A DNA stretch of 29,957 nucleotides, taken from a virus. Of the stretch, positions 1 through 24,391 are shown piece by piece (within the stretch, counting starts at the first letter, position 1; the number at the start of each line of letters is the position of its first letter). The stretch lies in the IMG/VR virus record IMGVR_UViG_3300047550_005000, positions 1 to 29,957 of that record, one strand, 5' to 3'. The notes beneath the pieces were generated by a model that saw only the letters and a program-made list of their open reading frames with translations, had not been told where the DNA came from and ran no database searches. The position numbers and the translations under genes were made by a program.

Positions 1-27
1 TGGAGCAAGAGGCCGGGCGATGACTGA
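1..27 (+). CDS. 3' end of an upstream small gene (partial)
   Basis: Only the last codons lie in the window, ending in residues PGDD and a TGA at 25-27. The reading frame is chosen by analogy: four other genes in this chain also end in Asp/Asn-Asp-stop over the ATGACT start of the next gene. A second open frame ending at 21-23 (EQEAGR, 4-bp overlap) is also possible. No function can be assigned. Confidence 0.35.
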   Translation, partial: WSKRPGDD

Positions 28-202
28 CTTCCACCCCGCACCATTCCATGACTTCTCCACCGAGCTGCGCGACCCGTGGCCCTGCATTGAGCGTTTGCGA
101 ATAGCGCTGGTAGAGGCGCAGTATTACACACCAGGCTTAGAAAACACGACAGGTGTTGCCATTGACTTACTTCTTGAACTCTTGCCCAACGAAGATGACT
201 AA
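20..202 (+). CDS. Small hypothetical protein, first complete gene of the left-end chain
   Basis: A 60-residue acidic protein beginning MTDFHPAPFHDF and ending LLLELLPNEDD. I do not recognise it. No signal peptide, membrane segment or Cys/His cluster is visible, and the C-terminal half (IERLRIALVEAQYY onward) could form helices. The ATG lies in the junction GATGACTGA, so it overlaps the preceding frame, and its own stop overlaps the next start by 8 bp in GATGACTAA. This implies translational coupling within one polycistronic message. Coding status rests mainly on that context and on the MTD start shared with the gene at 804. Confidence 0.6.
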   Translation: MTDFHPAPFHDFSTELRDPWPCIERLRIALVEAQYYTPGLENTTGVAIDLLLELLPNEDD

Positions 203-476
203 TCAACGCCTTATTTCCCCGCCCGCTGCAGTCATCCGCCAATGGGAAGTCGAATGGGACACCAACGGCGCCGCCCATTGCGACAAAGCCCTCTACATCG
301 CCGCTAAGGCTGCAACCTGGGGCGCGAAGGCTGCCATTGAGTGCGCCCTGAAGGACACTGCCTCATGCCACTGGCGCGTTGCCGATGGCCCTGAAGATGG
401 AGTGCAGCTCGTCCGCGCCAGTGATCTGGTGGCTTGGGCAGCTGCCATTGGCAAGCGTTACGAGGTTGAAGAATGA
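195..476 (+). CDS. Small hypothetical protein, paralogue of the next gene
   Basis: A 93-residue protein starting MTNQRLISPP. An in-frame ATG further upstream (153) exists, but 195 is preferred because it gives the 8-bp ATGACT overlap seen throughout this chain. The N-terminal pattern I-S-P-P-x4-I-R-Q-W and the central AAKAATWGAKAAIE match the neighbour's ITPPPELVQQW and ATEAAQWGADQELE, so the two look like products of a tandem duplication. The rest is soluble and without catalytic motifs I know. I remember this family from cyanophage genomes as conserved hypotheticals. Function unknown. Confidence 0.75.
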   Translation: MTNQRLISPPAAVIRQWEVEWDTNGAAHCDKALYIAAKAATWGAKAAIECALKDTASCHWRVADGPEDGVQLVRASDLVAWAAAIGKRYEVEE

Positions 477-811
477 CTGCCATCACCCCACCGCCGGAGC
501 TGGTGCAGCAATGGTGGGAGCAAGCCGACCAGTATCAAGACGATCCAAAGACTTACTTTGATTACGTTGCCACTGAAGCCGCACAGTGGGGCGCCGACCA
601 GGAGCTGGAGGCGTGCTGTGAGTGGCTGCGCAGCAAGGACATTCTGGAGCCTGCCATTGATGCTCTCCGCGCAGACCGTCGCCCCAAGCCGCCGAGCTTA
701 AAAGAACAAGCTCTTGCTTTAATTGATCTTATTCAAGGAAATAAAACAATGTGGCAACTTAATGATCTTGATGTTGTTCGTAAAGCACTGGAGCAACTAC
801 CAAATGACTGA
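473..811 (+). CDS. Conserved small hypothetical protein (PPPELVQQW type)
   Basis: A 112-residue protein, MTAITPPPELVQQWWEQ at the N-terminus, then a helical segment with AAQWGADQELEACCEWL and a basic, proline-containing stretch (RADRRPKPPSLKEQAL). It is a diverged copy of the gene at 195-476 with a longer C-terminal extension that ends LEQLPND. The start overlaps the previous stop by 4 bp (ATGA) and its stop overlaps the next start by 8 bp. The region 705-790 encoding the C-terminal helix is visibly more AT-rich than the rest. Molecular role unknown. Confidence 0.8.
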   Translation: MTAITPPPELVQQWWEQADQYQDDPKTYFDYVATEAAQWGADQELEACCEWLRSKDILEPAIDALRADRRPKPPSLKEQALALIDLIQGNKTMWQLNDLDVVRKALEQLPND

Positions 812-1280
812 CTTCCGAGCGCTGTGCGCCCGCATGGCTGACGAGCTGGATCACTATCGGCAGCTCCTGGTAGATGATTGCCGCGAAGCTCATTTCTTGG
901 CGACCGAAGCCCGCTCCGCCCTGGCCCAGCCCGAGCCGCAGGGGCCGACGGATGAGGAGTTAGGCGAGCTATGGGACAAGTTGTGGGCCAAAATTGACGA
1001 AGGTGAAGTCATCTGGGCATGGCAACTCTATGCCCGCGCCGTCCTTGCCCGCTGGGGTTGTCCCGCCATCGAGCCGGTACCCGTTGCTGAGCGCTTGCCG
1101 GGGGCGGAGGATTGCGGGCCAGAAGGAAGGTGCTGGGCTTGGAATCCGGAATCGTTGTGGTGGGACTGGTGGCAACCCAAGTTCATCATCATGTGCGCCG
1201 GAGACCCTTACACTCACTGGCTTCCCCACCACGCGCTACCGGTACCTAATTCCAATTCAACTACACCTGGAGATCAATGA
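804..1280 (+). CDS. DUF551-like small phage protein
   Basis: The 158-residue protein begins MTDFRALCARMADELDHYRQLL. The open frame extends up to 723, but 804 fits the junction pattern AATGACTGA. The N-terminal 60 residues look helical, and the second half is Trp-rich: PVAERLPGAEDCGPEGRCWAWN, then a WWDWW stretch and finally THWLPHHALPVP. The RLP start and the THWLP ending are typical of DUF551-like phage proteins, small domains of unknown function often found near replication or accessory genes. The N-terminal half may be a separate helical module. Assignment to the family is from memory of motifs and is moderately sure; no activity is known. Confidence 0.8.
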   Translation: MTDFRALCARMADELDHYRQLLVDDCREAHFLATEARSALAQPEPQGPTDEELGELWDKLWAKIDEGEVIWAWQLYARAVLARWGCPAIEPVPVAERLPGAEDCGPEGRCWAWNPESLWWDWWQPKFIIMCAGDPYTHWLPHHALPVPNSNSTTPGDQ

Positions 1281-1591
1281 CTGAAATAACCCAACGCGCC
1301 CAACGCTTAATCGACGAGTTTGAAGAAGGCAAAGATACACGCCATGGTATTGCCAAAGTGCTTTTGCACTTAGCTGTTGCCTGGGACAGTTACAGCGATG
1401 ACACCACGCTTCAAGGTGTTCGCTGTTCGATCTTGGAAGACATGGCAAAGGAACTTACTGCCCCGTCCTTACTTGATCGCGCCTTATCTGGCGACCGCAA
1501 AGCTGCTCGACAGTTTTTGCAGGAGGTTGGCTTTATTGATGCTAATGGACAACTCATTGCCCCTTATCGACCAGAGGATTTGAATGACTGA
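1277..1591 (+). CDS. Small hypothetical protein with a conserved C-terminal segment
   Basis: A 104-residue protein starting MTEITQRAQRLIDEFEEG. The C-terminal half contains ALSGDRKAARQFLQEVGF followed by IDANGQLIAPYRPEDL, a segment I recall in other cyanophage hypotheticals. It appears all-helical, soluble and mildly acidic. It overlaps the previous gene by 4 bp (ATGA) and the following one by 8 bp (AATGACTGA). No enzyme motif is seen, and function is unknown. Confidence 0.8.
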   Translation: MTEITQRAQRLIDEFEEGKDTRHGIAKVLLHLAVAWDSYSDDTTLQGVRCSILEDMAKELTAPSLLDRALSGDRKAARQFLQEVGFIDANGQLIAPYRPEDLND

Positions 1592-1823
1592 GTTATCATC
1601 ACAGGCTCAAGCTGTGTTGGATGCCGCATACCAAGAATTGGACTACGCCCCGCGTCGTCACGTTCAGTGGGTAGCAGCCGCCGCCCTGCGAGCTGTTGCG
1701 GATCAGGTGGCTCCTGATGACGTCGTTGAACCCCGCAACTATCTACCCATGGCAATGGAGTGTCAGCGCATCCGTCAAGAACTCCTCGCCATCGCCGCCG
1801 AGCTGGAGGGTGCTGATGACTAA
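1584..1823 (+). CDS. Small helical hypothetical protein
   Basis: A 79-residue protein, MTELSSQAQAVLDAAYQE at the start and RIRQELLAIAAELEGADD at the end. It is alanine-rich with the core VAAAALRAVADQV, and probably forms a compact helical bundle. I recall similar short proteins in cyanophages without known function. Its start ATGACTGA overlaps the upstream stop by 8 bp and its own stop GATGACTAA overlaps the next start by 8 bp, so it is held in the middle of the coupled chain. Confidence 0.8.
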   Translation: MTELSSQAQAVLDAAYQELDYAPRRHVQWVAAAALRAVADQVAPDDVVEPRNYLPMAMECQRIRQELLAIAAELEGADD

Positions 1824-2211
1824 GCCCCTATCAGACAAGCTAAGCCTTGCATTAGTTAAGTACAAACACAGCTACCTACTTATACCTGTGTTACTACGTA
1901 TTGTGGCAATGTGGATTCATGAAGAACCACTAGATGTTTACACTGAAGACAAGGCCGTAATCGTAAACGCCTTACTAGACATGGCAAATAGTTGCACTAA
2001 TGCGCAGCCTAGTCTGCGTGACGTAGGTCTGCCGCCTGACCTGCTTAACCCCCTACTGCGAGCAGGCCTAAGCACCGTAGACAGCGTTAAAGACCTAGGC
2101 CTTCAATGCTTACCTGCAATAAAACTTATTGGGCCTAAGCGGGCTCAGCTGATCATGGAAGCCCTTGCAGCGTACGAGGCTTCGTTGCCCGGCGTCACAG
2201 AGGAGGCCTAG
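1816..2211 (+). CDS. Helix-hairpin-helix protein resembling the RNA polymerase alpha C-terminal domain
   Basis: A 131-residue protein. The frame is open from 1696, but the start at 1816 fits the coupled junction. Residues 1-60 form an unrecognised hydrophobic helical part (YLLIPVLLRIVAMWI). Residues 72-122 read LPPDLLNPLLRAGLSTVDSV, then a short linker, then LPAIKLIGPKRAQLIMEAL. This is the pattern of a helix-hairpin-helix as in alpha-CTD and related DNA-binding domains (LxxxLLRAGLxTVxxL...IxxIGPKxxxxIxxAL). Such domains bind DNA non-specifically, or contact UP elements and activators in alpha-CTD. A role in host or phage transcription is possible but inferred. It is the last gene of the coupled chain and is followed by about 120 bp without a gene. 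Confidence 0.78.
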   Translation: MTKPLSDKLSLALVKYKHSYLLIPVLLRIVAMWIHEEPLDVYTEDKAVIVNALLDMANSCTNAQPSLRDVGLPPDLLNPLLRAGLSTVDSVKDLGLQCLPAIKLIGPKRAQLIMEALAAYEASLPGVTEEA

Positions 2212-4349: not shown

Positions 4350-4892
4350 ATGCAAAAACTTATTGGCCTATATAGTCCGGCTCCGCAGTCGGGTAAGTCT
4401 ACGGTTGCTAAGTGGTTATGCGAAGAGAAGGGCTACGTTGTGATACCTTTTGCACAAACACTTAAGGAGGCTTTAATTCCGGTGCTTGTCGCCTTAGGGC
4501 ATGCACCAGCAGAAGCTGAGACTTTAGTATTTCGGGATAAGCACACCGTGATCCCTGAGGTGAAGTTGTCGGTGAGGCAGCTTTTGCAGACGTTGGGGAC
4601 TGAGTGGGGTAGGCAGTGTGTTCACCCAGATCTATGGCTTAAGTGTTGGGCTAAGCGTATTGAGCAGTACGACAAAGTTGTTGTTGATGACGTAAGATTT
4701 GAGAATGAGGCCAGCCTAGTTAAGCAGCTTGGAGGTGAGCTGTGGCTATTGCAGCGGCCGGGCATCCAAGCGCTTAGTGGCCATGCGAGTGAGGGAGGAC
4801 TGGATGCCTATGCGGGGTTTGATCGGGTGATTGGGAATACGGGGACGATTGCAGAGCTGCTGCGTACACTGGAGGAAGCTGTCGAGGCCTAG
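4350..4892 (+). CDS. Deoxynucleoside monophosphate kinase-like P-loop protein
   Basis: A 180-residue kinase-fold protein. A Walker A-type loop lies at residues 10-18 (PAPQSGKST; the first position is Pro rather than Gly/Ala). It is followed by a helix, FAQTLKEAL, typical of phage dNMP kinases. The middle has LLQTLGTEWGR and PDLWLKCWAKR, and VVVDDVRFENEA at about 110-121 supplies the conserved D-x-R-F-x-N-E motif of the T4 gp1-like family. Such enzymes phosphorylate dTMP, dGMP and related nucleotides for phage DNA synthesis. Substrate range cannot be read from sequence. It sits downstream of thyX, whose product it could use. Confidence 0.88.
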   Translation: MQKLIGLYSPAPQSGKSTVAKWLCEEKGYVVIPFAQTLKEALIPVLVALGHAPAEAETLVFRDKHTVIPEVKLSVRQLLQTLGTEWGRQCVHPDLWLKCWAKRIEQYDKVVVDDVRFENEASLVKQLGGELWLLQRPGIQALSGHASEGGLDAYAGFDRVIGNTGTIAELLRTLEEAVEA

Positions 4893-5197
4893 TGCCTTCT
4901 CTGCGATACCACGCCGGCCGGATGGTTCTCTATGAGGGACCTGAAGGCTGGCGTGTTCGCATCAAAGGACATACAGGCAAGTTAGATCTGCCGCTCAGCT
5001 GTGACGACCTAGACGATGCTGTACTCGAAGCTGAACAACTCTATGCTGATGCACGCGCTGTGACGAATCCAGGACCACGATGCATGCAGTGCGTCCACTG
5101 GCTACCTACTCGAGCAGAATGTGGTTTGGAGTTTCCTGAGGGACGAGCCAGTGGAGGAGCCTACGCCAAAGACTGCTGTGCCTTCTGGGCTAAGTAG
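4892..5197 (+). CDS. Cysteine-rich small protein, possible zinc-binding C-terminus
   Basis: A 101-residue protein read from a GTG that shares one base with the kinase stop. An internal ATG at residue 11 is an alternative start. The N-terminal part (MVLYEGPEGWRVRIKGHTGK) looks like a small beta domain. The C-terminal third holds CMQCVHW, a further Cys in AECGLEFPEG and a Cys pair in KDCCAFW. This C-x2-C...C...C pattern could bind Zn or an Fe-S cluster, though that is inference. Similar CxxCxxW...PE...DC proteins occur as hypotheticals in cyanobacterial genomes from memory. Function unknown. Confidence 0.75.
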   Translation: MPSLRYHAGRMVLYEGPEGWRVRIKGHTGKLDLPLSCDDLDDAVLEAEQLYADARAVTNPGPRCMQCVHWLPTRAECGLEFPEGRASGGAYAKDCCAFWAK

Positions 5198-8326: not shown

Positions 8327-10846
8327 TTATGCCCAGCTGCCTATAGAAGTGTTGGAACCTGAGGCCCCTAGAGGCCAGATGCTGAAGTAAGAACCTGCGT
8401 TTGTTGTAAACAAGTTACCAGGAGCAACGTCAAAGGAGTATTGAGGAATAAATGTACCTGCTGCGTTAATACTTACTGAGCCTTTGATAAAGTATATAAC
8501 GCTTACTGCACTTATTAGAGTACCAGATACAACAGATGCTCCGGCCGAGGTTGCTATAAAACTAGCTGGTGCAGCATCGTACGTCGAAAGAGGTGGAAGG
8601 ACTGATGTTGGTCCTGGGCCAACGCCAGAATACATAATATTGTTAATTGTGGCTGTTCCGCCGAATAAGAAGTTCATTGTAGGAGAACCAGACGCAGAAC
8701 TACACTGAAGCCAGTAAAGTGCCTCAAACTCGTAAACAGTAGAGGCTACAAGACTTACACCTACACCAAAGACGGATTGAGCTGCAGCTTGGTTTGCTCC
8801 GTTACGATTACTATTTAGGCGGAAATACTGCTTCGATGGGTAAATACCACTGCTTAGGCCGTTGACGGTGCCGGTTAGGTAGCCTTGGTTGTTGATGCGG
8901 GCCCGCTCCGTCGGACTGGCGGCGCCGTCGGGGGTGGTGCTGAAGACCAGGCGGCCGGGGTAGTCGCCAGCTCCAGTGGTTGCATCAACCTCACCTTGTA
9001 TCTGAGCAAATACGTTTCCGTTGCTAGCTTGATCCGTGAAACGTAGAAAACCAAGTTGTGTGTCGGCAGATAAGGGCGTAGTAGCTGAGCCGTTGTATGC
9101 AACCTGCAAAACTCCGGTGGCGCTACCGTTTGATGCTCCTTGAACAATAATTCTTCCTACGCTACCAGAACCGCTCGTCGTCCCCACCAACAGCCTGCCG
9201 GAGGAGTCGATGCGGGCGCGTTCGGTACCGCTTACACCGAACAAGATGCCATCTGTACCGTGCAATATGGCAGAGCTGCCCGCGGAGGTAAGAGTCACAT
9301 TCCCAGCAGCGCTAAAATAGGCTGCTGTTCCACTATCCGCTGCATTGTGGACACTAAACCCAACTTGATTTTTACCTTGAAAATTGAAACCCCCAAAGTC
9401 ACTTGTAGTGCCAACGAGTAGCGCAGGGGTAGTAGTACCCAAAAGCGTCATCGCCTGGGTGAAGGTGATGGCGGATCCGGCGGTGCCGGAGCCTGCTATG
9501 TGCCAAGCGTGGGTGCCGTTGCCGCCGCCGCAATCGTATCGCGTAGCATAACCAGCATTTGCATACTTATAACCAGAATTGTAATAACCATTGGAAAGCA
9601 AAGACGTTGCGTTGATTCCAATGCCCCACAAAACATTTCCGGTAGAAGTTCCAATTTCTAGTGCTTTTCCAAGATTCCAGTTAGCACTCGGCGTCACCCC
9701 CAGGCCGAGGTTGCCGGAGGCGTCGAGGCGCATTTTTTCGCCACCAGCAGTATCAAAACGCAAAATACGATTACTATTATCACCAAAACTAATCCCAACG
9801 TCATAGGCGCCAGAGCTATTGCTGTGATAAATTCCTAGATCGCCGCCGCCGACAAGGTTGATAACGCCATTATTTGCGGCCCCAAAATCAACTTTAATTC
9901 CTGCATTTCCCGCAGAAGTGTACCCAGAAGCGGAACCAAGACCTTGGACTTCTAACTTTGAGCCGGGGTTAGCGATTCCAATCCCTACCAGCCCTCCCGA
10001 AGTAATGCTGAGTCTATGTGCGCTGGCGTTGTTATCCCAAATACTCAGCCCGCCGGTGGTCCCAACGCCTATTGAGTATTTGCGGGTTGTAAAACCTGCG
10101 TCATTCTGATTGATTGTGATACATGGCAGCGTTCCCGCAACCTCTAACTGCCGGCCGTATCCAGCAGTATTACTAACGCTAGAAGTCCCCAGACCGACAT
10201 TTCCTGCTGACGTAAGCACCAAGCTGTCAACCGGCGCCGAGCCTGAGAAGCTGACGGCCTGGGTGGAGCCTGCGGTGCCGGCACCTTTGATGTTGACGTC
10301 GCCAGTGCTGGTGATGCGGAGGCGTTCTGTGCCCGCAGTTTCAACAGCAAAATTACTGGAAGCATCAACAGAAACTTTGCCTTTTTCTGCTCCACCACTT
10401 CCAAAACGTATAATACCCGCACCTGATGATGGGTAAACACGCAGTTCACCTGCTACATCAAGCGCAGAACCAGGAGAAGCCTGGCCAATTCCAACAAGTC
10501 CACCAGACGTCACAAACACCCGCCCCGTCCCACCCGTGCTGATGGCCACCTGACCAGCGCCAGGAGAGTAGAGGCCTGCATCGGCAGTGGTGCCGAAGTA
10601 GATGGATGGCGTTCCCTGTGCCCCCATCGGCACACTGAACGCCGTGCTTAGGGCGTTCCAGTTCGTGCCGTCGTACTTCTCCCAGCGCTTGTTGGCGGAG
10701 TTCCAACGGATCGCGTTGGTGGGGATGTTGGTGGGGGAGGTGGTGGCGGGGTCTAGGCCGAGCGCCAGGTCGACGTCACGGTTTTTGACCTCGTTGACGA
10801 AGTCGGTGTAGAGGCTGGTGAGCGTCGGGTTGGACCAGTTGGCCAC
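8327..10846 (-). CDS. Tail fibre / receptor-binding protein
   Basis: An 839-residue fibre read from GTG, 3 bp after the J-like gene. The N-terminal ~80 residues (MANWSNPTLTSLYTDFVNEV, then NAIRWNSANKRWEKYDGTNW) look like the tail-attachment end. The shaft repeats two motifs many times: GGLVGIGxAxPGSxLxV and GTERxRIxSxGxV, as in trimeric beta-helical fibres with bacteriophage and cyanobacterial homologues. The C-terminal ~170 residues (from YPSKQYFRLNSN) are a non-repetitive, probably jelly-roll-like tip that would bind the host surface. No S74 intramolecular chaperone is visible at the end. The tip-coding part (8390-8830) is more AT-rich than the shaft, suggesting exchange. Specific receptor unknown. 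Confidence 0.86.
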   Translation of the reverse strand: MANWSNPTLTSLYTDFVNEVKNRDVDLALGLDPATTSPTNIPTNAIRWNSANKRWEKYDGTNWNALSTAFSVPMGAQGTPSIYFGTTADAGLYSPGAGQVAISTGGTGRVFVTSGGLVGIGQASPGSALDVAGELRVYPSSGAGIIRFGSGGAEKGKVSVDASSNFAVETAGTERLRITSTGDVNIKGAGTAGSTQAVSFSGSAPVDSLVLTSAGNVGLGTSSVSNTAGYGRQLEVAGTLPCITINQNDAGFTTRKYSIGVGTTGGLSIWDNNASAHRLSITSGGLVGIGIANPGSKLEVQGLGSASGYTSAGNAGIKVDFGAANNGVINLVGGGDLGIYHSNSSGAYDVGISFGDNSNRILRFDTAGGEKMRLDASGNLGLGVTPSANWNLGKALEIGTSTGNVLWGIGINATSLLSNGYYNSGYKYANAGYATRYDCGGGNGTHAWHIAGSGTAGSAITFTQAMTLLGTTTPALLVGTTSDFGGFNFQGKNQVGFSVHNAADSGTAAYFSAAGNVTLTSAGSSAILHGTDGILFGVSGTERARIDSSGRLLVGTTSGSGSVGRIIVQGASNGSATGVLQVAYNGSATTPLSADTQLGFLRFTDQASNGNVFAQIQGEVDATTGAGDYPGRLVFSTTPDGAASPTERARINNQGYLTGTVNGLSSGIYPSKQYFRLNSNRNGANQAAAQSVFGVGVSLVASTVYEFEALYWLQCSSASGSPTMNFLFGGTATINNIMYSGVGPGPTSVLPPLSTYDAAPASFIATSAGASVVSGTLISAVSVIYFIKGSVSINAAGTFIPQYSFDVAPGNLFTTNAGSYFSIWPLGASGSNTSIGSWA

Positions 10847-10849
10847 GGC

Positions 10850-13800
10850 TTAGGTTCCTCGTGCGGTCCAGCTAAACGGGCCGCTCACCCGGTTACCCGA
10901 GAGGTCGAACAGCAGCACCTTGAAGCTGGTGGGGTTGGGGGCGTCTACAAAATCATAGATGGCAATACGCGGAGTTGTTCCAGAGGGGGTAACGCTGAGG
11001 CCCTCGACATCCACAAACGGAACCGTGAAGTTGACGACAGTTCCACCGCTGTCGGTAGAGACAGCATTACCGGTGCCGGCGTCGTTACGAATCTTCACGT
11101 CTAGGCGGACGTTCAGGCTGTCGACGCGGAGGAGGTCATCGCCCCCGCTGGATGCGAAGTCGTACTGGACCTGTAGGTAGCGGAACGAGGCAGCGAAGAC
11201 CTGGTTTAGGCCAGCGTAATTTGTCCACTTGGTCCAGTTGACGTTCCCGCTGGTTGTGGTGCTTGTTGTGCTAGTTACGGTGAAACTGCCAGATGCAGCT
11301 GTGGCTACGACATAGGTTGCCGTTGTAGCTGTGCCAGATGTGAAGGACAGGTAGACGTAGTCGCCCATGGATAGGCCGTGAGCAGCGGAGGTGACGGTGA
11401 TTGTGGTGCCGGTTTGGGAGTAGGTGGCTGCGGTACTTGTGGTGCCACGAGTGCGTAAGGCTGGAGTGATTGAGGTTGCGCCAGCAACTGTTGTAGTGCT
11501 TAGAGTTGATGTTACTTTTGTGTTTGTGATTGTTGTGCCGTAGTCAATCTCCTCGACGTAGCTTGCGCTGTTTGTCGAGGGCATGGCGTAATAAGGGAAG
11601 CCAGCGGTGATTTGGGCTTGTGGTGTAGTCCAACTACGAGAAGTGAAGTGTGATTGCCACGTTTCTGTGGTATTGACTGGAACGATGAGCTTACCGTCAG
11701 AGGCGTAGGCGCTTGTTTTTGTGCCGGTGAAGGTGCTGTTGTAATCCGACTTAAGGATGTAGTCGGGGGGTTGGTTTACTTCGGCGCTGACGCTGGATGG
11801 CGTGCCGTAATTGCCAGCAGTGTCTACACCGGCGAGCCAGTAAGTGTAGGTGCCGGCTACAGTTTCAAAAACGGTGGTGAAGAGGCCCTGCTTGGTACCG
11901 ATCGAGGTTGCGGTTTCCCAGGTAGCGCCACGTTTGACTTCGTAGTAGACGATCGGTAGAGAGGTGGTGACGTCGTTCCAGCGGAGCAGAACGTTGTTGT
12001 CGATTACCTGCTGGGTGATGGATGGGGTACCCGGGGCTGTGATGGTGACTTGTACGGAACTTTGCGTGCCGGCATTGCCCCTGGAGTCGATCGGCTGAAT
12101 CCAGAAGCGGCGGCTACCAACCCAAGTCACCTTGATCTTGTAGGTGGTGCTTTGTGTTTCTGCAATGGGGGTAGCAGCTGGATCGAACGTCTCGCTTTGA
12201 AAGATCTTGTAGGTAGCGATGTCAAGACTGCCTACGGTGGGAGTCCAGGAGAGCTCGACTTGTTCGCCTTTGAAGGCGCTGTTGGTCTGGGCAATACTCG
12301 GCAGAACGAGTGTGGTAGTTACAGATCCAAGAGCCCCAAGCTCTTCGTTGCTACCCACTGCACGGACGCGGAATATCTTCTCGCCTGTCCAGGTCGGGGC
12401 AATACTGAAGGTTGTGGTTTTGGAAGTGTCGACTAGGACGTCGGAACCGGCGTTGACTTGGTAGATCTTGTAGTCAGTGGTTGGGACTGAGCCAGCGACG
12501 GCATTCCAGGTGAGGGTGAGGAGGTTGTTGGCGAAGGTGGAGGCGACTGTTGGAGCAGTGGCTGCGACAGTGGTAAGGGTGACTGTGCCGGCGGTGCCGA
12601 GGTTTCCAGCTGTGTCTGTTGGACGGACCCAGAAAACACGAGCACCGCTCCAGCTGACTGGAGTTGCAAAAGTGGTGGCGTTTACTTTGCCGAGGGATAC
12701 GCCAGCATCGAATGAAGCGCCGTAACGCACTTCGTAGAAGGCTATGGGTAAAGACGCGCTTACAGCAGGCCAAGTAAGCACACCTTGGGTTCCGTTGAAA
12801 GTGGCTGTTATGGATGGGGTAGCGGGGGTCGTAACAGTTACGGTTACGGATCCGGTTGTACCGACGTTTCCGTTGATGTCGACAGCCCGAACTCCATAGG
12901 TTTTGTTGCCTTGCCAGTCAACGGTCTTGGTGTACTTTGTTGTTTGTGCTGTTGCAATGACCGTCGCACCATCGAGGATTTCGTAGGTGCGTGTGGGTAG
13001 TGTTCCTACTATGGCATTCCATGCCAGTAGAACGTTCTGCCCTTCAAAAGTTGAGGTGACGGTTGGCGCCGCAGCAGCAACGATGCTTACGTCCTTGTAG
13101 ATCGAGGTACTTTGGTTGCCGGCGGTGTCGAAAGCGGTGACCCAGAAGCGACGATCGCCAAGCCAAGAGCCTACGACCGAGTAGGTGAGGCTGGAGACCT
13201 TGTCTAAGATTGCGGCGCTGGCATATGTAGGGCCATAGCGAAGTTCGTAATAGCGAATCGGAAGGTTACCGGGCGTGGATGTCCAGATGAGCGTGATGAC
13301 TGTGTCATCGACGGATTGGTTGATCGTCGCACCCACAGAGGGCACTGTTGGACTAACAACGATCGAACCTTCTGCGCCAAAGTTCCCATTAGCGTCGACG
13401 GCGCGAACAGTGAAAGTTTTAGAGCCCGTCCAGTCGACGTTTTTGGTGTACGTGGTGGTTTGGCTGGTGGCGATGACGGTGGCGCCATCCAGGATTTGAT
13501 AGGCGCGTGTTTTTGTGGTGCCGTTGACGGCGTCCCACTTCAAGATGACGTTGGGGCCGTCGAAGGTGGCGCTGCGGTTAGGCGGTGCAGCGGCTTGGAT
13601 GACCGTGATGGTGGTAGAACCTAGGCTACTTTGGTTGCCCGCAATATCTACTGCTTTGACGCTATAGCTACGTGCACCGCTCCAGGTAATCGGAAGGCTG
13701 AAACTTGTTGTTTTAACTTCTGCCAGGGTGGTTCCGCTGTAGATAATCGCGTAATAGGCAATGGCGTAACTAGCTGTAGAAGCGCTCCAGGTAATGGTGG

Positions 13801-16504
13801 CTAAGACGTCTTCAGTACTTGAACTTGGTGCTGGGGTGCTAACTGCATTAATGGTTACTGTTGTGGAAGCTGCTGTTGTGCTGTATACGCCGCTGGTATC
13901 GAGGGCCTTGATGCGATAGGTAGTAGTGCTTGGCGCGATTAGGCCGACTTTATAGGTGGTGGCGTTGACTTTTGTTACGAGTGTGGCGCTGGCCCAGTCC
14001 GTTCCACCGCTGCGAATTTCGTAGGTGGCGAGGTCAATGTCGCTTACGGCTGTCCAGCTGAGAAGAACGCCTATGTTGGGGTCGATGCTGTGGGTGAAGT
14101 TGGCGACGTTGGCTGGTGGAGCAGTTTTGCCAAGGGCGTTGAGGCTGCCGGTCAGGGGAGCGGCAGACTGCTTGCCGAGGGCGTTGAGGGCATAGATGCG
14201 GAACTCGAACAGGCCGGGGGTGATGTCGAGGACGTCGTAGTCGGGGCCCTGGACAGTGATGCTGATCCAGTTGCCGTTGTCCTTGCGGTACTGGACGAAG
14301 TACTGGTTGACGCCGAGAACTGGCTGCCACCGAGCCATGACCTTGGCACGGACCTGACTCTGATAGGTGTATAGGGTCTCGCTGAGGCTTAGGCCGGTTG
14401 GGGTGGCGGGTAAATCGTTGAGGTTGCTGACGTCCCGTTGTTGGAGGGGTGCACCACGCTCGACGTAGGCGTACTTGCTGGAGTTGTAGGCAATGGCCGA
14501 GATGGCGTAGTTTGCGCCGTCCTGTTCTTGGATGCCGAGGACGCGCCAGGTGCTGGCCTGGAGGTCGTTGGTTTCCCAGATCCAGACGCTGTTGGCATTG
14601 GGTGCGGTGGTGAAGGGAGTGGTGACGGGGACGGTGGTGCCGCTGCGGGTGCCGACCGTACGGCTCTCAACCGTACCGTTGGGGAGGATGACGCTGATGG
14701 TGCCGCCACTTGCTGGGAGGCCGGTGGCGTTGTCCACAACTAGGGCGCTGGTGGTTGCGGAGGTGAGGCGACCACCACGGCGAGAGCCGGCACGAACTGG
14801 GTCGCTGATCTCGATCACCTGGCCCGGGCGCACCAACACGCCGGCGTCGATCGAGGCGGTGAAGGTGACGATTTCGTTTTCGTACTGTTCGCTGTAGAGC
14901 AGCCAGTCGGCGATGCGCGAAGCCTGACCTCGGCTAGTGCAGGCGAAAGCGTCGATCTGGGTGGTGATGACCCCGTATTTGCTGATGGCGGTCTGGTCTT
15001 CGGCGACCTCGTAAGCAGCGTCGCGGCTGGCGAGGTCGAGGTACTTGACGACGGCGACGGTGGGGCGGCCCTTGCGGCTGCTGTTTTCGTAGGAGAAGCC
15101 TTCCTCGCTGACGTTGGCCAGGGTAAAGAGGTAGGCCGGATCGGTGGGTTTGTCCTGGCTGATGGTTAGGGCGCCTGCTGCCCAGTACGGCATGGCCCGG
15201 AAGACGCTGGCCAGATTGTTGATAAGGGTGTAGGCCTCCTCGGGGGCTTGGATGCTGACGTTGCAGGAGAAGCGGGGCTCCTGACCACCGAAGCCGTCGG
15301 GAACAAGGGTGGCGCAATACTGGCTAGCGCTGTAGAAGGCCCACTTGTCCAGCTGAGCAGCGGTGATGTGGTCGCCGAATCCGTAGCGGGTGCTGGTCAG
15401 TAGATCCCACAGGATCCAGGCTGGGTCGCTGCACCATTTCGCTGCACCGAAGGTGCCGTTCCATACGCCTGAGTAGATGAGACGGCCAGTGGTGCTATCA
15501 ACGGTGGCGTTGCTCGGGATGGCAACTTTGATACCGCGCACCAGGTAGCTACGTTCTGGGATGCTGCTGAACTGTGCTGCGTCCATGCGCAGCGCAACTA
15601 GGGCGCTGTTTGGGTAGCGGAATTTGCTGTCAACGATGGTGCTGTAGCTGCTCCAGCTAAATGCGCTGGCCGTAGGAGGGTACGCAGTATCAGCAGAGAG
15701 GCGACTTACACGAATATCTACGGGGAAGGCACCTGTGATTGGGATGTTGTAGTCTTTCTGATACGGATCGTCAGTACGACCTGTTACTGTGTCATCTAAA
15801 ACTGTGGTAAATCCACCACCGTTGTATTGCACCGAAATACGTAGTTGGAATGTGCTACCAACTACGTCGCCGTTCGTTTTTTGTTCCTGAAGTAGCGGTA
15901 CATTAATTGTTACTTTTACGCGATTTACGCTTGAATCTGTAATTGTTTGAGTTACAGGTGAGCCTTGCAGTACGGTTGCGCCTACAGATACTGTATTGGC
16001 AACTCCATCTAGAGGAATGTACGTCTGCGACTGAGTGCCATTACGTGTATATACAGTAACGTTACGAAAGTTTAAGGAGCATATGTATACGGTTCCGCTC
16101 GATGTTGAATAGTACGGACTAAATACAGTAAAAGTTGTACTACTGGTTACGGTAACTGTATAGGTACCATTAGGCGGAAGGTTTCCAGCAAAATCAAGAT
16201 ATATAGAGTCTCCTGTTGTTAGGCCGTGTGGTGTTGATGTAGTTACTGTGATTGTTGGGTTGAACGATTGAACATAGGTGCCTGTTTTTAGAATTGTTGC
16301 TAGTGGAGTATTGTTAAGGTAGATTGATGCTAAACCATTTTTTAGACCGCTAATTTCTCCTTCGCTGAGTAGATCGAGAACGGTGGCATACTGTGTGGAT
16401 TCGAGGCTGTCAGGGCTTACTTGTGGAGTGCGAGCTTGACCTCCACCGCTCTTACCGTCGTTTCCGCCGCCAGCGCCGATGATCTGTGGGTTTTCCTGTG
16501 TCAT
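10850..16504 (-). CDS. J-like tail tip / host specificity protein with ten FN3-type modules
   Basis: An 1884-residue protein, much longer than lambda J (1132). The N-terminus has a Gly-rich start, then RTPQVSPDSLESTQYATVLD and LLSEGEISGLKNGLASIYL, typical of J. Residues ~76-141 are an inserted HGLxxGD domain, and a second copy lies near 11225-11425. The J core continues to about residue 690 (WILWDLLTSTRYGFGDHI, EAYTLINNLASVFRAMPYW). From ~700 to ~1575 there are ten FN3-like modules, eight with a W-x-G...DxxGN ending. The C-terminal ~300 residues are beta-rich. It forms the central tail tip that triggers DNA release and contacts the host. It follows the I-like gene by 3 bp. Composition shifts sharply between blocks. 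Confidence 0.93.
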   Translation of the reverse strand: MTQENPQIIGAGGGNDGKSGGGQARTPQVSPDSLESTQYATVLDLLSEGEISGLKNGLASIYLNNTPLATILKTGTYVQSFNPTITVTTSTPHGLTTGDSIYLDFAGNLPPNGTYTVTVTSSTTFTVFSPYYSTSSGTVYICSLNFRNVTVYTRNGTQSQTYIPLDGVANTVSVGATVLQGSPVTQTITDSSVNRVKVTINVPLLQEQKTNGDVVGSTFQLRISVQYNGGGFTTVLDDTVTGRTDDPYQKDYNIPITGAFPVDIRVSRLSADTAYPPTASAFSWSSYSTIVDSKFRYPNSALVALRMDAAQFSSIPERSYLVRGIKVAIPSNATVDSTTGRLIYSGVWNGTFGAAKWCSDPAWILWDLLTSTRYGFGDHITAAQLDKWAFYSASQYCATLVPDGFGGQEPRFSCNVSIQAPEEAYTLINNLASVFRAMPYWAAGALTISQDKPTDPAYLFTLANVSEEGFSYENSSRKGRPTVAVVKYLDLASRDAAYEVAEDQTAISKYGVITTQIDAFACTSRGQASRIADWLLYSEQYENEIVTFTASIDAGVLVRPGQVIEISDPVRAGSRRGGRLTSATTSALVVDNATGLPASGGTISVILPNGTVESRTVGTRSGTTVPVTTPFTTAPNANSVWIWETNDLQASTWRVLGIQEQDGANYAISAIAYNSSKYAYVERGAPLQQRDVSNLNDLPATPTGLSLSETLYTYQSQVRAKVMARWQPVLGVNQYFVQYRKDNGNWISITVQGPDYDVLDITPGLFEFRIYALNALGKQSAAPLTGSLNALGKTAPPANVANFTHSIDPNIGVLLSWTAVSDIDLATYEIRSGGTDWASATLVTKVNATTYKVGLIAPSTTTYRIKALDTSGVYSTTAASTTVTINAVSTPAPSSSTEDVLATITWSASTASYAIAYYAIIYSGTTLAEVKTTSFSLPITWSGARSYSVKAVDIAGNQSSLGSTTITVIQAAAPPNRSATFDGPNVILKWDAVNGTTKTRAYQILDGATVIATSQTTTYTKNVDWTGSKTFTVRAVDANGNFGAEGSIVVSPTVPSVGATINQSVDDTVITLIWTSTPGNLPIRYYELRYGPTYASAAILDKVSSLTYSVVGSWLGDRRFWVTAFDTAGNQSTSIYKDVSIVAAAAPTVTSTFEGQNVLLAWNAIVGTLPTRTYEILDGATVIATAQTTKYTKTVDWQGNKTYGVRAVDINGNVGTTGSVTVTVTTPATPSITATFNGTQGVLTWPAVSASLPIAFYEVRYGASFDAGVSLGKVNATTFATPVSWSGARVFWVRPTDTAGNLGTAGTVTLTTVAATAPTVASTFANNLLTLTWNAVAGSVPTTDYKIYQVNAGSDVLVDTSKTTTFSIAPTWTGEKIFRVRAVGSNEELGALGSVTTTLVLPSIAQTNSAFKGEQVELSWTPTVGSLDIATYKIFQSETFDPAATPIAETQSTTYKIKVTWVGSRRFWIQPIDSRGNAGTQSSVQVTITAPGTPSITQQVIDNNVLLRWNDVTTSLPIVYYEVKRGATWETATSIGTKQGLFTTVFETVAGTYTYWLAGVDTAGNYGTPSSVSAEVNQPPDYILKSDYNSTFTGTKTSAYASDGKLIVPVNTTETWQSHFTSRSWTTPQAQITAGFPYYAMPSTNSASYVEEIDYGTTITNTKVTSTLSTTTVAGATSITPALRTRGTTSTAATYSQTGTTITVTSAAHGLSMGDYVYLSFTSGTATTATYVVATAASGSFTVTSTTSTTTSGNVNWTKWTNYAGLNQVFAASFRYLQVQYDFASSGGDDLLRVDSLNVRLDVKIRNDAGTGNAVSTDSGGTVVNFTVPFVDVEGLSVTPSGTTPRIAIYDFVDAPNPTSFKVLLFDLSGNRVSGPFSWTARGT

Positions 16505-18976: not shown

Positions 18977-21900
18977 TTAGCGGCTTAGGATGCCGCCGGG
19001 CCGCTTCTGCTTGACGAGCTCAGCTTGGACGGCTTGGCTGATGACTCGGCCGAGAGCAGCGGCCTGACCTGGGTCGTTGTTGGCAGAGGTGCCGGAGGCG
19101 TCGACGTTGACTGTGATGTTGGTGGTTCCACCGCCACCGGCCACGCCGAGCTTGCCATTGCGGCCGCGCTGCAGAGGGATGATGGCCTCGGGGCCCGCTT
19201 CGCCCATCAGGCCGGTGCCGGGCACTCCACCGTTGGCATAACGGAAGAGCGTCGGGCTCTGCACAATGCCGCCCATCGCATAGGGGACGATTCCGTTAGC
19301 AGCAAAGGCGTTGCCGTTGGCACTGAACGCCGAGATGCCCGGACCTATCGGGCCAAAATTGAGCGCAGCGGGACCGAGGCTACCTACTCCAGATGCAGCG
19401 GTAGCTGGACCGCCAAACAACGATGTAAGTCCTTGAATCAAGGGCTTAAGGACGAGCTGCTGGAGAATTATCCGAGCGGTCTGCTTGAGCAGTTCGGAGG
19501 CGAACTGATTGAAGTTGGCAGTCCCTGTCGTGGCAAGCGAGAACAACGACTCTTCTAGGCCTTTGATGCCGCTGGTGGTTAGCTGAGCGGTGGCCTCCTT
19601 CATGGACCCGATAGATTCGACGTACTGACGAGCGCCTTCGCGGAAGCCGAAGCCCCGCTTAGCGTTTTCTTGTAAGTCGTAGATTTCGCGTAGAAGATCG
19701 GCTTGCTTACGGTATTGCTCTAGGTTGTCCTTTATAGCTGCAGCTTGTGCTTTGTCGGCAGTAAGTGCATCTATCCTTAGCTTATTCTGTTCTCTCGCAT
19801 TTTCGTTAAGCTCTAGTTGCAGCTCAATGTAGGCCTCTGTATACCCTTCCATCTGCAGGCCTATGCGCTCCTTGCTTAGACGCAGCTCTTTTGTAAGTTC
19901 TTCGTTTTGCTGACGAAGGGATTCGGTGTAGTCAAGAATTAGCGTTTTTGCCGCCGCTTTTTCAAACGCAGGTTTATCCTGGAGCAGACCACTCAACGTA
20001 GCGTTCTCTGCGCTTAGCCTACCTTCGCTTGCAAGTATGTCGCCTTGGTCGGTGATGTTGCGGTTGAGCTGGGATGCGACGGCTGAGCGCTGTCTTCCTG
20101 CTCCTCCGGCTATACCTAAAAGCTGTTGAACGCGAGCTGTAAGTGCTCGTTCTTGCCCCACAGGAACCTGAGCACCAGGTACATCAAAAGCAAGCCCAGA
20201 ATAGTGTGCAGAACCTGTACTATGACCACCTACACGTCCATAGCCTTTGAATTCAGTTACTTGTATACCTGCAGCACGCAAGGTGGCGTAGGCAGCTTCT
20301 GCAGCAGCACGTGTTACAAACGATAGGTGCTCATGGTAGTTAGATCCACCATGATCTGCACGGTAATAAGGACTACGAGGATCTCCAGTTATATAGCCAG
20401 AGATTCCAGAAGGAAAGCGTCCGGCTGTACTAGGTGCAGCTGAGGCGGCAGTAATGGCTGCCATTTTTTGCGCTCCGCTTAGGTCTAACTGTGCCTGACT
20501 TACGGCGTTGCGGGCGGCGGCGATGCGGCGGTCGTACTCCTCAATGGACTGTCTGTAGCGGAGGTCGGCGGCGGCGCGTTCGCGACTTGCACCGAAAAGC
20601 AGGCGGAGCTCATTCTGAGCGTTGAGGTCGGCGAGCTCCTTGCGGCGCTGGTAGAACTGCTCCTCGAGCTCGATGCGACGCTTGAACACGTCGTCAGCCA
20701 GGCGGATCTCTTGTTGAGCGATCTCTTCGTTGCGGCGTTGTGCTTGTTCGGCGGCGACTTGAGCATCTTTTACAGCCTGTTTACGTGCTTTTTCGGCTGT
20801 ACTTTCATTACCAGTAGGCTGTGCAAACTTAGTAACAGATGCCTTCTCCGCCTCTGTTAATCGTTTCATACGAGCTTCTTCGTCTTCTAGGCGTTTGCGA
20901 AGCTGCTCACCCTGTGTGGACAGCATGCGCATGCGCCGTGCTACTTGCTCCTCAGAGCCTTCGCCTACACCTAGACGACGTTGAATTTCAATAAGATCTT
21001 TTAGGCTTGCAATATTCTGTCGTGTGCCCTCGACACCTGCTTGTGGGGTTATGGACTTAAATGCACGATCAATAGCTGCATAGGCTTCTCGCCTAGGATC
21101 GCCAAAAGTAAACTGAGCATTACGTCGTTCTACGGCTCTATAGGCCTCACCGACACGACCTTGTATATCTCTTCCCCGTTCTAATGTTATCTCGGCGCCA
21201 GCAGCTTCTCTAACAAGTTTGAGTGCGCGTGCTGCGCGTAAAGCCATATCAATAAGCTGAGTTGTGACATTCTGGATACTGGCTCCTATGGGCGTAAGAG
21301 CATCACCTATTGCAACTTTTAAGTTAGCAAAACTGACTTTCATTCGTTCGCCAGCATTTTCACTCGAGCTGGCAAGTTTATCCATAATGGGTGTATACTT
21401 ATCTCCTACTGCTAAAACAAACTTCATAAAGTCATTGAGGCCTACACTACCTTCTTGTAAGGCTTTTTGTAACTCTGGGCCTGTCTTACCAGCGGACTTT
21501 GCAAATAGAGTAAACGTACCCGGAAGACGTTCAGCTATCTGATTTAGTTCTTCTGCGCTTACTTTACCTTTGGAGAATATTTGAGTAAGTGCTAGCATTG
21601 CTCCCTGTACTTGTTCCGTATTTCCACCTGTCGCTTTGACAGCGGCTGTAATTGCGTTGAATGCAAGCTCCGTGTCTCTAATCGTTCCTCCAGCACCTTT
21701 TACTGACGCAGCTAAGCGCGTGAAGGATTCTGTAGCTTCTGTAGGCTGTAAATTAAAACGAGCGCCGGCGTTAATAGTTGCCTGCAGTGCTTGCTCGTAC
21801 TCTTTTGCAGAGCCAGCTACTCCACGCAACGAGATACGCAACTTACTTAGTTGAGCGGCATAGTCAGTCGCAATAGTTAACTGCTGTCTAAACATGCCAA

Positions 21901-24391
21901 GTTGACCACCGATAGCTGCACCAGCAAAAGCACCACCGGTGCCGCCGAATATCCCGCCGATCACACCGCCGAGCAGGCCTTCGGGGCCGCCGAAGATGCC
22001 GCCGGAGATGGCAGCACCAGCAGTCTGCGCGAACTGCATACCGCTGAAGCGGCGACGTCCTCCTTCTCGACCTTCAAGCTCGCGATCGATCTTGCGCACA
22101 CTCCGAGAGATGCGCCGTTCCGTGGCCTCGAAGTTGGCAGCTAAGGGGTCGAGGTCTAAGCGGATCTCCTGGAGAGCCTGCCGGACTGCTTGTAGCTCAC
22201 GTGTGGTGCCTTTCGCAAAATTTGGAATGGCAGGTAGGCGGAACTGCTCAGCCCCGACGCCTACGCCTAAGCGGGCGGTGTACTCGGCGGGCGACTCCCC
22301 TGTCCGAGGCAGCATGCCTGTGGGCGTCTGCCCTAAGCGGACGCCACGAAACGCCTCGATTACCGAAGGGGCGTTGCCGGAAAATTGAATTGCTTGGCGG
22401 CGTAGTGCACGCTCTTGCTGCAAGACGGCAGTAGAGGCGCCCGAAACAGCCCGGCCAAAATTATCAACTATTTGCTGTAAGCGGGAAGCCCCGTCACGAA
22501 TAAGTTTGAACTGCCTAGGTATGTCGTCTGGATCTGTGCCGCGAGACATCTTGGTAATGTTATCCTGCGTTTTTCGTAAGGCTTGACTAAACGCATTGAT
22601 GGCGGCGTAAGGTGAGCCGGTACGACCCGCTATAAGCTGACTTCCTGCACTCTTCAGACTGTCTCCAAATACGCTCACTGAGTTGCGAAGCCTGGTAACT
22701 GCAGTACTTACGCCTTGCTCCATGGATACTTCCACGCGGCGGCGGTAGGCCTGGCCTGATTCGCCAGTACGGGGATATAGCTCGGCAGGAGCTTTGCCTG
22801 GGGCGAAAGAGGCAAAGGCCTGTTGGACAGCAGAGGAGCCGCCGGCGTAGCGGATAGCCCGACGCTGCAGATCCTGCATCGTATCGGTAGTTCCGTTTCC
22901 CGTGCGATTGAGGTTTCCGCCAAAGATTCCGAAAAGGTCTTGGACGGCTTGTTGTGGTGTGCGCCCCATAAGTTGTTGGGAAGCACCAGCACGTTGTGTT
23001 CCTACACCGACAATGGTTTCGTATAGCGGAGACAGATCTCTACCGCCTAGGCCCAAGGTGGCTTTGATGACGCCGCGACGATTTAGAAGTGCATCACGCC
23101 GAGCTAGGCGCCGATCGAATGCGGCTAATTCAGCATCAAAAGCGGCTTGCTGAGATGCAAGTAGGTCCGCATTCTTTTTATCTTCTAGATCTATAGCGCG
23201 GCGATTATAATTTTCTTGGACTTCAAGTAGACGTGTGTATGACTGTCGTGCAACAAGCGCTTGAGTATTTAAGGCTTCAACATAGTTGCCTGTTAACTCT
23301 TGTAGGTTTGCTTGCTCTGCCTCGCTTAGGATACCTTGGCGTAGACGCTTTTGGCGGTTGCGTCTGATAGAGCGCTCAACTGGATCGGGGTTGAAAAATT
23401 CTCTAAGTCCACTTGTGCGATTTAGTTCACGCTGTGCTTCAATACGTCTACGAATGGCTGCAACGGCACGATCTTCTTGAGAAGTTACTTCTTCTACGGA
23501 TGTACGTAAGCGACGATTAAGCTCTCTTAACTCTAGCGTTAGTTGACGGCGACGCTCGTAACCGGATATGTTTTCAAGTTCGGTGTTGATTTCATTGATG
23601 CGAAAACGTATGGCTGCAAGTGTGTCGGGTAATTCAAGTTTTAAGGATCTTTCGCCTACAAATTCTTTATATTGCGGGCTTTCGTACATAGCCGTTGTTG
23701 CTCGTAACTCTTGACGACCAACCGTGGCAGAGCGCACTGTGCCAACTAAAGCAATGCGCTGTTGATAACGTAAAAACTCTTGCGTGCTTATATTCAGAGA
23801 TTGCATCCGACGTTGAAGGATGCCTATCTGCCGAGCAATTACATCTAATGATGCACCGGGCATCTGCGTAAGCGTATTGGCGGCCTGACTGGCTTCGGTC
23901 TTAAAACGCCCTAAGTCTGCGGTGGCGCGTTGAATGTCATTGCTTAGTTGTACGAAGGCAGATGAGCCGGGGCGAGTCTGCTGACGGAGACGTTCGAGGC
24001 CGGCGATCTGACGCTCGATGGCACGGGCGTTTTGGTTGCTGGCGCCGGCACTACGCACTAAAGCCTCGCGTTGACGCTCAATTGCATCAGTAGAGCCGCG
24101 AAGCTCTGCTTGTAGCGTATTGATGTCGCCGGTGAGTTCTGTGAAGGCGCGACTGCCGAACTCGGCTTGGGTGCGGAGACCTCTTAGCGCTTCTAATTGG
24201 CCTCGGATAAGTTGTTCAGTTCGGCCGCTTTCGGCGCCGAAGTTTGTGATGCGTGTGCGTATATCGTCAATCTGCCTACCGCTTAGCTGAGCGACCTTGT
24301 CGAGGTCGCGGAAGGCGCCTTTGAGTTTGTCGACGCCTTCGTAGCCCTCGATGCCGAGGCGGATGAGGAGCTCGCTTACCTGCCTAGCCAT
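18977..24391 (-). CDS. Tape measure protein with an embedded M15-like peptidase motif
   Basis: An 1804-residue protein that sets tail length. Residues 1-790 are largely coiled coil. A Gly-rich hydrophobic block lies near 790-825 (GGIFGGPEGLLGGVIGGIFG). The tape-measure N-terminal-type domain is at ~832-1050 (SAEELNQIAERLPGTFTLFA). A second coiled coil is followed at ~1335-1435 by DHGGSNYHEHLSF and GHSTGSAHYSGLAFDVPG, the latter with the SxHxxGxAxD motif of M15 DD-peptidases. The C-terminus has the usual MGGIVQSPTLFRYANGG and GLMGEAGPEAIIPLQR. Such proteins enter the host membrane during DNA transfer, and a muralytic domain would help cross the wall. Its start overlaps the GT stop by 8 bp. GC content changes abruptly between domains. 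Confidence 0.95.
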   Translation of the reverse strand: MARQVSELLIRLGIEGYEGVDKLKGAFRDLDKVAQLSGRQIDDIRTRITNFGAESGRTEQLIRGQLEALRGLRTQAEFGSRAFTELTGDINTLQAELRGSTDAIERQREALVRSAGASNQNARAIERQIAGLERLRQQTRPGSSAFVQLSNDIQRATADLGRFKTEASQAANTLTQMPGASLDVIARQIGILQRRMQSLNISTQEFLRYQQRIALVGTVRSATVGRQELRATTAMYESPQYKEFVGERSLKLELPDTLAAIRFRINEINTELENISGYERRRQLTLELRELNRRLRTSVEEVTSQEDRAVAAIRRRIEAQRELNRTSGLREFFNPDPVERSIRRNRQKRLRQGILSEAEQANLQELTGNYVEALNTQALVARQSYTRLLEVQENYNRRAIDLEDKKNADLLASQQAAFDAELAAFDRRLARRDALLNRRGVIKATLGLGGRDLSPLYETIVGVGTQRAGASQQLMGRTPQQAVQDLFGIFGGNLNRTGNGTTDTMQDLQRRAIRYAGGSSAVQQAFASFAPGKAPAELYPRTGESGQAYRRRVEVSMEQGVSTAVTRLRNSVSVFGDSLKSAGSQLIAGRTGSPYAAINAFSQALRKTQDNITKMSRGTDPDDIPRQFKLIRDGASRLQQIVDNFGRAVSGASTAVLQQERALRRQAIQFSGNAPSVIEAFRGVRLGQTPTGMLPRTGESPAEYTARLGVGVGAEQFRLPAIPNFAKGTTRELQAVRQALQEIRLDLDPLAANFEATERRISRSVRKIDRELEGREGGRRRFSGMQFAQTAGAAISGGIFGGPEGLLGGVIGGIFGGTGGAFAGAAIGGQLGMFRQQLTIATDYAAQLSKLRISLRGVAGSAKEYEQALQATINAGARFNLQPTEATESFTRLAASVKGAGGTIRDTELAFNAITAAVKATGGNTEQVQGAMLALTQIFSKGKVSAEELNQIAERLPGTFTLFAKSAGKTGPELQKALQEGSVGLNDFMKFVLAVGDKYTPIMDKLASSSENAGERMKVSFANLKVAIGDALTPIGASIQNVTTQLIDMALRAARALKLVREAAGAEITLERGRDIQGRVGEAYRAVERRNAQFTFGDPRREAYAAIDRAFKSITPQAGVEGTRQNIASLKDLIEIQRRLGVGEGSEEQVARRMRMLSTQGEQLRKRLEDEEARMKRLTEAEKASVTKFAQPTGNESTAEKARKQAVKDAQVAAEQAQRRNEEIAQQEIRLADDVFKRRIELEEQFYQRRKELADLNAQNELRLLFGASRERAAADLRYRQSIEEYDRRIAAARNAVSQAQLDLSGAQKMAAITAASAAPSTAGRFPSGISGYITGDPRSPYYRADHGGSNYHEHLSFVTRAAAEAAYATLRAAGIQVTEFKGYGRVGGHSTGSAHYSGLAFDVPGAQVPVGQERALTARVQQLLGIAGGAGRQRSAVASQLNRNITDQGDILASEGRLSAENATLSGLLQDKPAFEKAAAKTLILDYTESLRQQNEELTKELRLSKERIGLQMEGYTEAYIELQLELNENAREQNKLRIDALTADKAQAAAIKDNLEQYRKQADLLREIYDLQENAKRGFGFREGARQYVESIGSMKEATAQLTTSGIKGLEESLFSLATTGTANFNQFASELLKQTARIILQQLVLKPLIQGLTSLFGGPATAASGVGSLGPAALNFGPIGPGISAFSANGNAFAANGIVPYAMGGIVQSPTLFRYANGGVPGTGLMGEAGPEAIIPLQRGRNGKLGVAGGGGTTNITVNVDASGTSANNDPGQAAALGRVISQAVQAELVKQKRPGGILSR

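Follow-up and report, generated by a model that had tools for sequence, protein, structure and literature searches.

Ea22 proteins of lambdoid phages are small accessory proteins from an exo-adjacent region that combine a conserved N-terminal part with a divergent C-terminal part and a common terminal tripeptide, and in these respects they resemble the products of the gene array described here; the arrays differ from them in that their genes stand in tandem, each contain three variable slots and are joined by a common stop/start sequence. The HsdS specificity subunits of type I restriction systems carry variable parts between conserved ones and are swapped by recombination in the conserved parts, a layout that the array genes share, although we found no homology to HsdS and the array slots are far shorter than HsdS recognition domains. 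Recent exchange of fragments between phages is also known as domain shuffling in phage proteins, for which the survey by Smug et al. in 2023 stresses receptor-binding, lysis and replication proteins (PMC10684548); here the exchanged units are slots of ∼15-30 residues in small proteins of hypervariable arrays. Cluster K mycobacteriophages possess start-associated sequences, 13 bp in length (GGGATAGGAGCCC), with a proposed role in translation initiation (PMC3203893). They resemble the array repeat in being short and tied to the starts of many small genes, and differ from it in that the array repeat is the start itself together with the previous gene's stop; no GGGATAGGAGCCC-like repeat was found upstream of the seven junctions studied here. 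Lastly, the mosaicism attributed to Rad52-like recombinases involves homology-driven exchange over short diverged segments with raised identity at the borders (PMC3945230), as we propose for the array, but it was measured in Escherichia coli phages and over longer homologies, whereas the exchange proposed here involves repeated blocks of one locus. By analogy, the array would work most like Ea22 combined with the fragment shuffling of phage proteins, with a repeated start element like that of the mycobacteriophages. A literature search, thin on subscription journals, found no paper on these arrays, their families or their octamer. We read the locus, at a probability of roughly three in four, as a hypervariable accessory array of small genes in Synechococcus/Cyanobium-type cyanophages, diversified by relaxed homologous recombination and linked by a coupling junction.

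The window (the whole stretch of 29,957 bases that was analyzed) carries seven array genes on its + strand. ORF1 (20..202, 60 aa) belongs to family G and has a related copy in locus L019 that likewise precedes ORF2- and ORF3-like genes, ORF2 (195..476, 93 aa) is a divergent family A-like protein, and ORF3 (473..811, 112 aa) is a family A member built as a three-slot mosaic. ORF4 (804..1280, 158 aa) represents family C, with 176 relatives in viral contigs, and ORF5 (1277..1591, 104 aa) represents family D, with 18. ORF6 (1584..1823, 79 aa) falls into family B by segment HMMs and alignment A2, with AlphaFold helices at 6-18, 24-42 and 51-76, and the last gene of the chain, ORF7 (1816..2211, 131 aa), has a middle part similar to the ends of family E proteins, which makes it a candidate for another chimera. 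At least 543 relatives of ORF3 were found among viral contigs, and 224 of family B with a member from L018 as the query; ORF7 as a query found no relative in the viral-contig scan. The HMM of PHROG 32006 (function unknown) covers most of ORF3 (phrog_32006, E=3e-28, residues 4-111) and only the first half of ORF2 (E=2e-5), and it matched none of the other array ORFs of the window. Family A is the sole array family with a database match, families B-E and H having only weak, sub-threshold matches in Pfam and PHROGs. Kinship with Ea22/DUF551, suspected for family C, found no support in Pfam, where no curated model scored above its cut-off for any of families A-E and H. Within ORF7, WIHEEPLDVYTEDKAVIVNALLDMAN aligns with WLNEEPLDLYPGDRGIVVNALYDQAN of L017 and L095, with a segment EEPLD..IVNAL..AN in common with family E ends, and the protein has a weak, sub-threshold helix-hairpin-helix match.

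The other genes of the window include those for ThyX, a dNMP kinase, a dCTP deaminase-like protein, a tail tube protein and the major capsid protein; given its tail tube, capsid and other phage genes, the window is a tailed-phage record. A 146-aa protein at 2331-2771 has a Pfam hit to RD3 that stays below threshold (E=5e-4; 20.4 bits, with the cut-off at 27) and is probably due to chance. Large proteins of 839, 1884 and 1804 aa are encoded at 8327-10846, 10850-16504 and 18977-24391 (-), the first of them with no Pfam match at E 0.01.

For comparison we used about 260 fetched loci, mostly metagenome contigs with putative hosts. Genes in all of them were called with our own simple codon-model caller, which shortened ThyX and reproduced all seven array genes. 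Because single-linkage clustering fused the array families via chimeras, segment HMMs were adopted in its place; one HMM, F1, absorbed family A in the first locus set and was left out afterwards. Three isolated Synechococcus phages, S-CBS2, S-H1 and S-RIP1, carry family A genes; among genomes the family was found in a single Cyanobium MAG contig, and among plasmids in none. Searches of named phages by tblastn with family B (a composite query from two members) and family C returned nothing at E 1e-3, and one S-CBS2 ORF nonetheless reads like a family B member. We also note that L176 (IMG/VR 3300044846_005229), a 279-kb virus contig far above the size of other carriers, holds family B and other array genes, so that array genes may extend to a jumbo phage, and that ∼2.8 kb of S-RIP1 (L102, 4343-7106), directly after its family A gene, lacks any annotated gene in the deposited record.

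The preliminary description of the window had listed seven gene junctions, six with the 9-mer RATGACTRA and one variant, and all seven are present: GATGACTGA at 19..27, GATGACTAA at 194..202 and 1815-1823, AATGACTGA at 803..811, 1276-1284 and 1583-1591, and the variant AATGACTGC at 472..480, all on the + strand. The 9-mer occurs six times in the window, on the + strand only and always within 19-1823, in comparison with a mean of 0.55 and a maximum of 2 in 100 dinucleotide shuffles, of which none reached six. The starts overlap the preceding genes as had been claimed, by 8 bp at 195, 804, 1584 and 1816 and by 4 bp at 473 and 1277. At site 19 the upstream gene is cut by the window edge; one frame, WSKRPGDD*, would give the 8-bp type and another leads to the 4-bp stop, so that the overlap there may be of either type. 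All seven ORFs start with M-T, and four end in Asp/Asn-Asp (ORF1 DD, ORF3 ND, ORF5 ND, ORF6 DD), again as described; these two facts are not independent, since the 8-bp overlap is read RAT GAC TRA in the upstream frame, one octamer thus having two readings.

ATGACTRA contains two stops besides the next start: a TGA beginning one base into the start codon, which ends the upstream gene with a 4-bp overlap, and a TGA or TAA at positions 6-8, which ends it with an 8-bp overlap. The octamer thus closes an upstream gene in either of the two other frames. Both uses occur among array-array junctions of the related loci, where ATGACTRA was found in 123 of 161 8-bp and 75 of 110 4-bp overlaps. CTGGAG, an SD sequence, precedes three window junctions, at 788-793 (inside the last constant block of ORF3), at 1267-1272 (1267..1284 with its junction) and at 1803-1808 (1803..1823 with its junction), and at the 154 ATGACTRA sites with 8-bp overlap in related loci GGAG lies at -11 to -8, within the last codons of the upstream gene. 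Translationally coupled gene pairs are expected to overlap by 1, 4 or 8 bp at stop and start and to have an SD upstream; the array gene pairs fit this pattern, and translation is probably coupled across the junctions. The junction is best seen as a coupling seam within a longer constant block that comprises the gene end, the SD, the stop/start and the beginning of the next gene.

We counted junctions in a nonredundant set, with the other same-strand gene junctions of the same loci as controls. ATGACTRA is present at 222 of 360 array-array junctions (62%) and at 90 of 2829 others (3.2%), a ∼20-fold difference. ATGACT begins 57% of array genes and 7.3% of other genes (8-fold), and ND/DD endings are found in 26% and 4%, respectively. 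The ATGACTRA junction is a lineage-wide signature of array loci. An ordinary explanation would be operon packing, with ATGACTRA merely a common overlap or favored start context and gene order fixed, and it has some footing: 4-bp overlaps are the most frequent gene overlaps in prokaryotes (PMC3887535), ATGACT is the commonest start hexamer even among non-array genes, and the 90 non-array junctions do carry ATGACTRA. Against this stand the enrichments just given, a variable gene order and the lack of any concentration of the 9-mer in the host MAG (23 copies in one 3.0-Mb Cyanobium MAG, with 10 for a reversed-pattern control); phage records of 26-83 kb have 4-20 copies each. We consider operon packing very improbable, and as a full account it is refuted by the junction enrichment together with the neighbor turnover and the near-identical phages with different arrays described below.

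The preliminary description took the identical junctions to mean that genes of a modular accessory cassette can be gained, lost or shuffled by recombination at the 9-mer, and the two halves of this proposal fared differently. Modularity is borne out: gain, loss and reordering of genes leave the junction intact. We found about 140 array arrangements, most family pairs were seen in both orders, and most orders were joined by ATGACTRA. When the left neighbor is common to two junctions at ≥75% DNA identity, the right neighbor is common too at only 29 of 141 ATGACTRA array junctions, compared to 1389 of 1978 non-array junctions; at ≥85% the figures are 20 of 59 and 845 of 979. Four loci from four data sets (L202, L127, L238 and L243) have flanks that are 98-99% identical over ∼3-6 kb per side, and their arrays all differ, with family A genes 44-50% identical, differing B genes, extra H or C genes, and chimeras. 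In L202 and L127 the left-flank identity reaches ∼44 nt into the first array gene and stops where its first constant block, ITPPPELVQQW, ends. Of the 102 breaks between long collinear matches in locus pairs, 63 contain array genes, a figure that is indicative only, because pairs are nonindependent and the loci were picked by array genes.

The 9-mer as the site of exchange did not hold up. At array junctions without it the right neighbor is common in 10 of 34 cases, so turnover there is about as fast, which makes turnover a property of the array and does not prove that the 9-mer has a part in it. Within genes, at constant blocks of greater length, exchange is just as frequent, and 9 bases are far below the 23-27 bp quoted as the minimum homology for Red-beta (PMC3945230), too short for a recombination substrate. 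The junction is one constant block among several.

The remaining blocks lie inside the genes. Family A proteins, of ∼110 residues, are laid out as four constant blocks, A1 (ITPPPELVQQW), A2 (AAQWGADQELEACCEWL), A3 (LRAARRPKPPSLKEQAL) and A4 (IRRALEQLND), and three variable slots of ∼15-30 residues, V1 to V3, which are unequal in length and unrelated in sequence (median identity 24-29%). In ORF3, all on the + strand, block A1 (ITPPPELVQQW, 482..514) is followed by slot V1 (515..577), identical in L026, L024 and L005, whose V2 and V3 are unrelated. Block A2 (AAQWGADQELEACCEW, 578..625), delimited like A3 by codon comparison and alignments, leads into V2 (626..664), identical in L016, L014 and L001, with V1 and V3 unrelated in L016 and L014; V2 is all that ORF3 has in common with L016 in the alignment. 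Block A3 (LRADRRPKPPSLKEQA, 665..712) precedes V3 (713..778), closest to that of L028 (78%), whose V1 and V2 differ, and block A4 (RKALEQLPND, 779..808) contains the first of the CTGGAG sites above. By this pattern ORF3 reads as a mosaic of slots from differing donors.

Across the family, too, the slots reassort with almost no restriction. We recovered 161 distinct full-length family A proteins, with 86, 87 and 80 slot types for V1, V2 and V3 (60% identity) in 155 combinations. Pairs with a common V1 also had a common V2 in 26 of 244 cases and a common V3 in 8 of 244, and pairs with a common V2 had a common V3 in 15 of 231, a result robust at cut-offs of 50-90% and repeated in 72 family A genes from loci found via families B and C and hence unselected for A. 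Family B, with two slots, behaves alike (8 of 243 slot-sharing pairs). At the DNA level, the genes of L217 and L013 are near-identical through V1 and unrelated past block A2. In S-H1 (L101), an ORF at 4750-5001 has a family A start (MTEQHPITPPPELQ) and then an unrelated protein, with a complete family A gene of the same start directly after; it looks like a duplicated first block left by exchange.

Could descent alone, by an old tandem duplication in which the ends were kept and the middles diverged with little exchange, have produced these genes? The families do recur in tandem, and common ancestry explains shared junctions within a family. Identical or near-identical slots nevertheless recur with unrelated partners in other phages, a pattern that no tree can produce. 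Chimeras exist between array families, and only 1 of 48 shared slots lies within one locus, the rest being shared between loci. We regard descent without exchange as extremely unlikely.

Most of the loci are metagenomic and the constant blocks are repeats, so short-read assemblers might have joined different phages at them. The isolates S-RIP1, S-CBS2 and S-H1 have the same architecture, however, and the podovirus S-RIP1 has V3 alone in common with L086 and L127. In addition, 50 of 163 family A proteins turn up unchanged at two or more loci, and for several of them the copies come from three to six different data sets, although some of these loci come from one contig; exact runs within blocks are mostly <30 nt. 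The mosaics are unlikely to be assembly artifacts, and to assembly chimeras as the overall explanation we give almost no credence.

Constancy of the blocks extends to the DNA. Where two slot-unrelated family A genes have the same amino acid in a constant block, they use the same codon for it in 67% of cases, whereas codon usage predicts 31-40% (0.66 versus 0.31 for block A1 of ORF3); the same measure in 15 control families gave 43% at 40-60% protein identity and reached 62% only at 80-90%. Where V2 alone is common, similarity is higher in the adjacent block halves than in the distant ones (+0.126 and +0.112, with bootstrap intervals >0); for V1 and V3 the contrasts point the same way and are not significant. 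The raised border identity expected of phage mosaicism is therefore clear for V2 and in single alignments and nonsignificant for V1 and V3. Unrelated pairs had an exact run of ≥23 nt in one block or more in 45% of cases, a length that falls in the Red-beta range given above. Recombination genes were found in a minority of the loci, which are fragments (RecT-like in 23, exonuclease VIII in 35 and SSB in 44 of 261), and where present they lie within a few kb of the arrays; the S-CBS2 array sits among genes of this kind. We infer that exchange proceeds by relaxed homologous recombination of the RecE/RecT type. The constant blocks could instead owe their conservation to protein function in combination with constraints on codons or RNA.

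A dedicated diversifier (a diversity-generating retroelement, an invertase shufflon or an integron-type integrase) that uses the blocks as recognition sites would account for blocks that are short and unusually constant in DNA. The slots, however, vary in length and are unrelated, and so are not substitution variants of one template as a diversity-generating retroelement would give; array genes are all in one orientation, and A1-A4 and the junction have no one common sequence. Such a diversifier seems to us highly implausible.

The comparison shows that the arrays consist of a few recurrent protein families and that whole genes and gene segments have been traded between phages, at short constant DNA blocks within genes and across junctions. 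Each junction presents, in order, a GGAG-type SD in the last codons of the upstream gene, ∼7 bases and RATGACTRA, and as this carries stops in both other frames, a new cassette is stopped whichever of those frames it uses, and could be coupled in either. Partners in recombination would likely be co-infecting phages or prophages. Selection may keep the diversity if these small helical proteins meet variable host factors, a step that we put forward more tentatively than the others.

AlphaFold models of families A and B are all-helical (pLDDT 87 for both; pTM 0.60 and 0.75, respectively). Foldseek found no match to the family A model in the PDB and only uncharacterized relatives in a viral library. 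On these models the constant parts would form a helical frame and the slots interaction surfaces. That the targets are variable host factors, in host takeover or counter-defense, is a guess prompted by the diversity and by the location in an accessory region near nucleotide and recombination genes. A further possibility is that the mosaic is real but its proteins are dispensable and drift, so that recombination would shuffle a locus the phage does not need and selection would not favor diversity. Neither a function nor a known fold was found, and the arrays freely tolerate gain and loss, while the retention of blocks and open frames across many phages is unlike pure neutrality, though this is weak evidence. 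Drift of this kind is unlikely in our estimation, yet it deserves serious consideration.

The larger finding is a hypervariable array with segment-level exchange. We suggest tentatively, as a possibility with the odds against it, that this is a combinatorial diversity locus, in which a library of segments circulates among Synechococcus phages, including a podovirus, and is joined into small proteins through homologous exchange at blocks kept constant for that purpose; so read, the library would hold at least 80 types per slot, where family A has three slots and family B two, and would include further families besides. If this is true, the stop/start octamer would let any cassette enter the operon, and the array would amount to a phage equivalent of the cassette-based generation of repertoires, directed at variable host factors. 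Phage mosaicism is known mostly for genes or large domains, and here exchange reaches segments of ∼20 residues in proteins of ∼110. The tandem arrays, which vary even where phages are in other respects 98-99% identical, are a marker of cyanophage gene exchange, and they explain a large number of the "hypothetical" genes recorded for aquatic viruses. What selects for array diversity becomes a testable question, and an octamer that closes either other frame offers a testable answer to how operons take up new genes.
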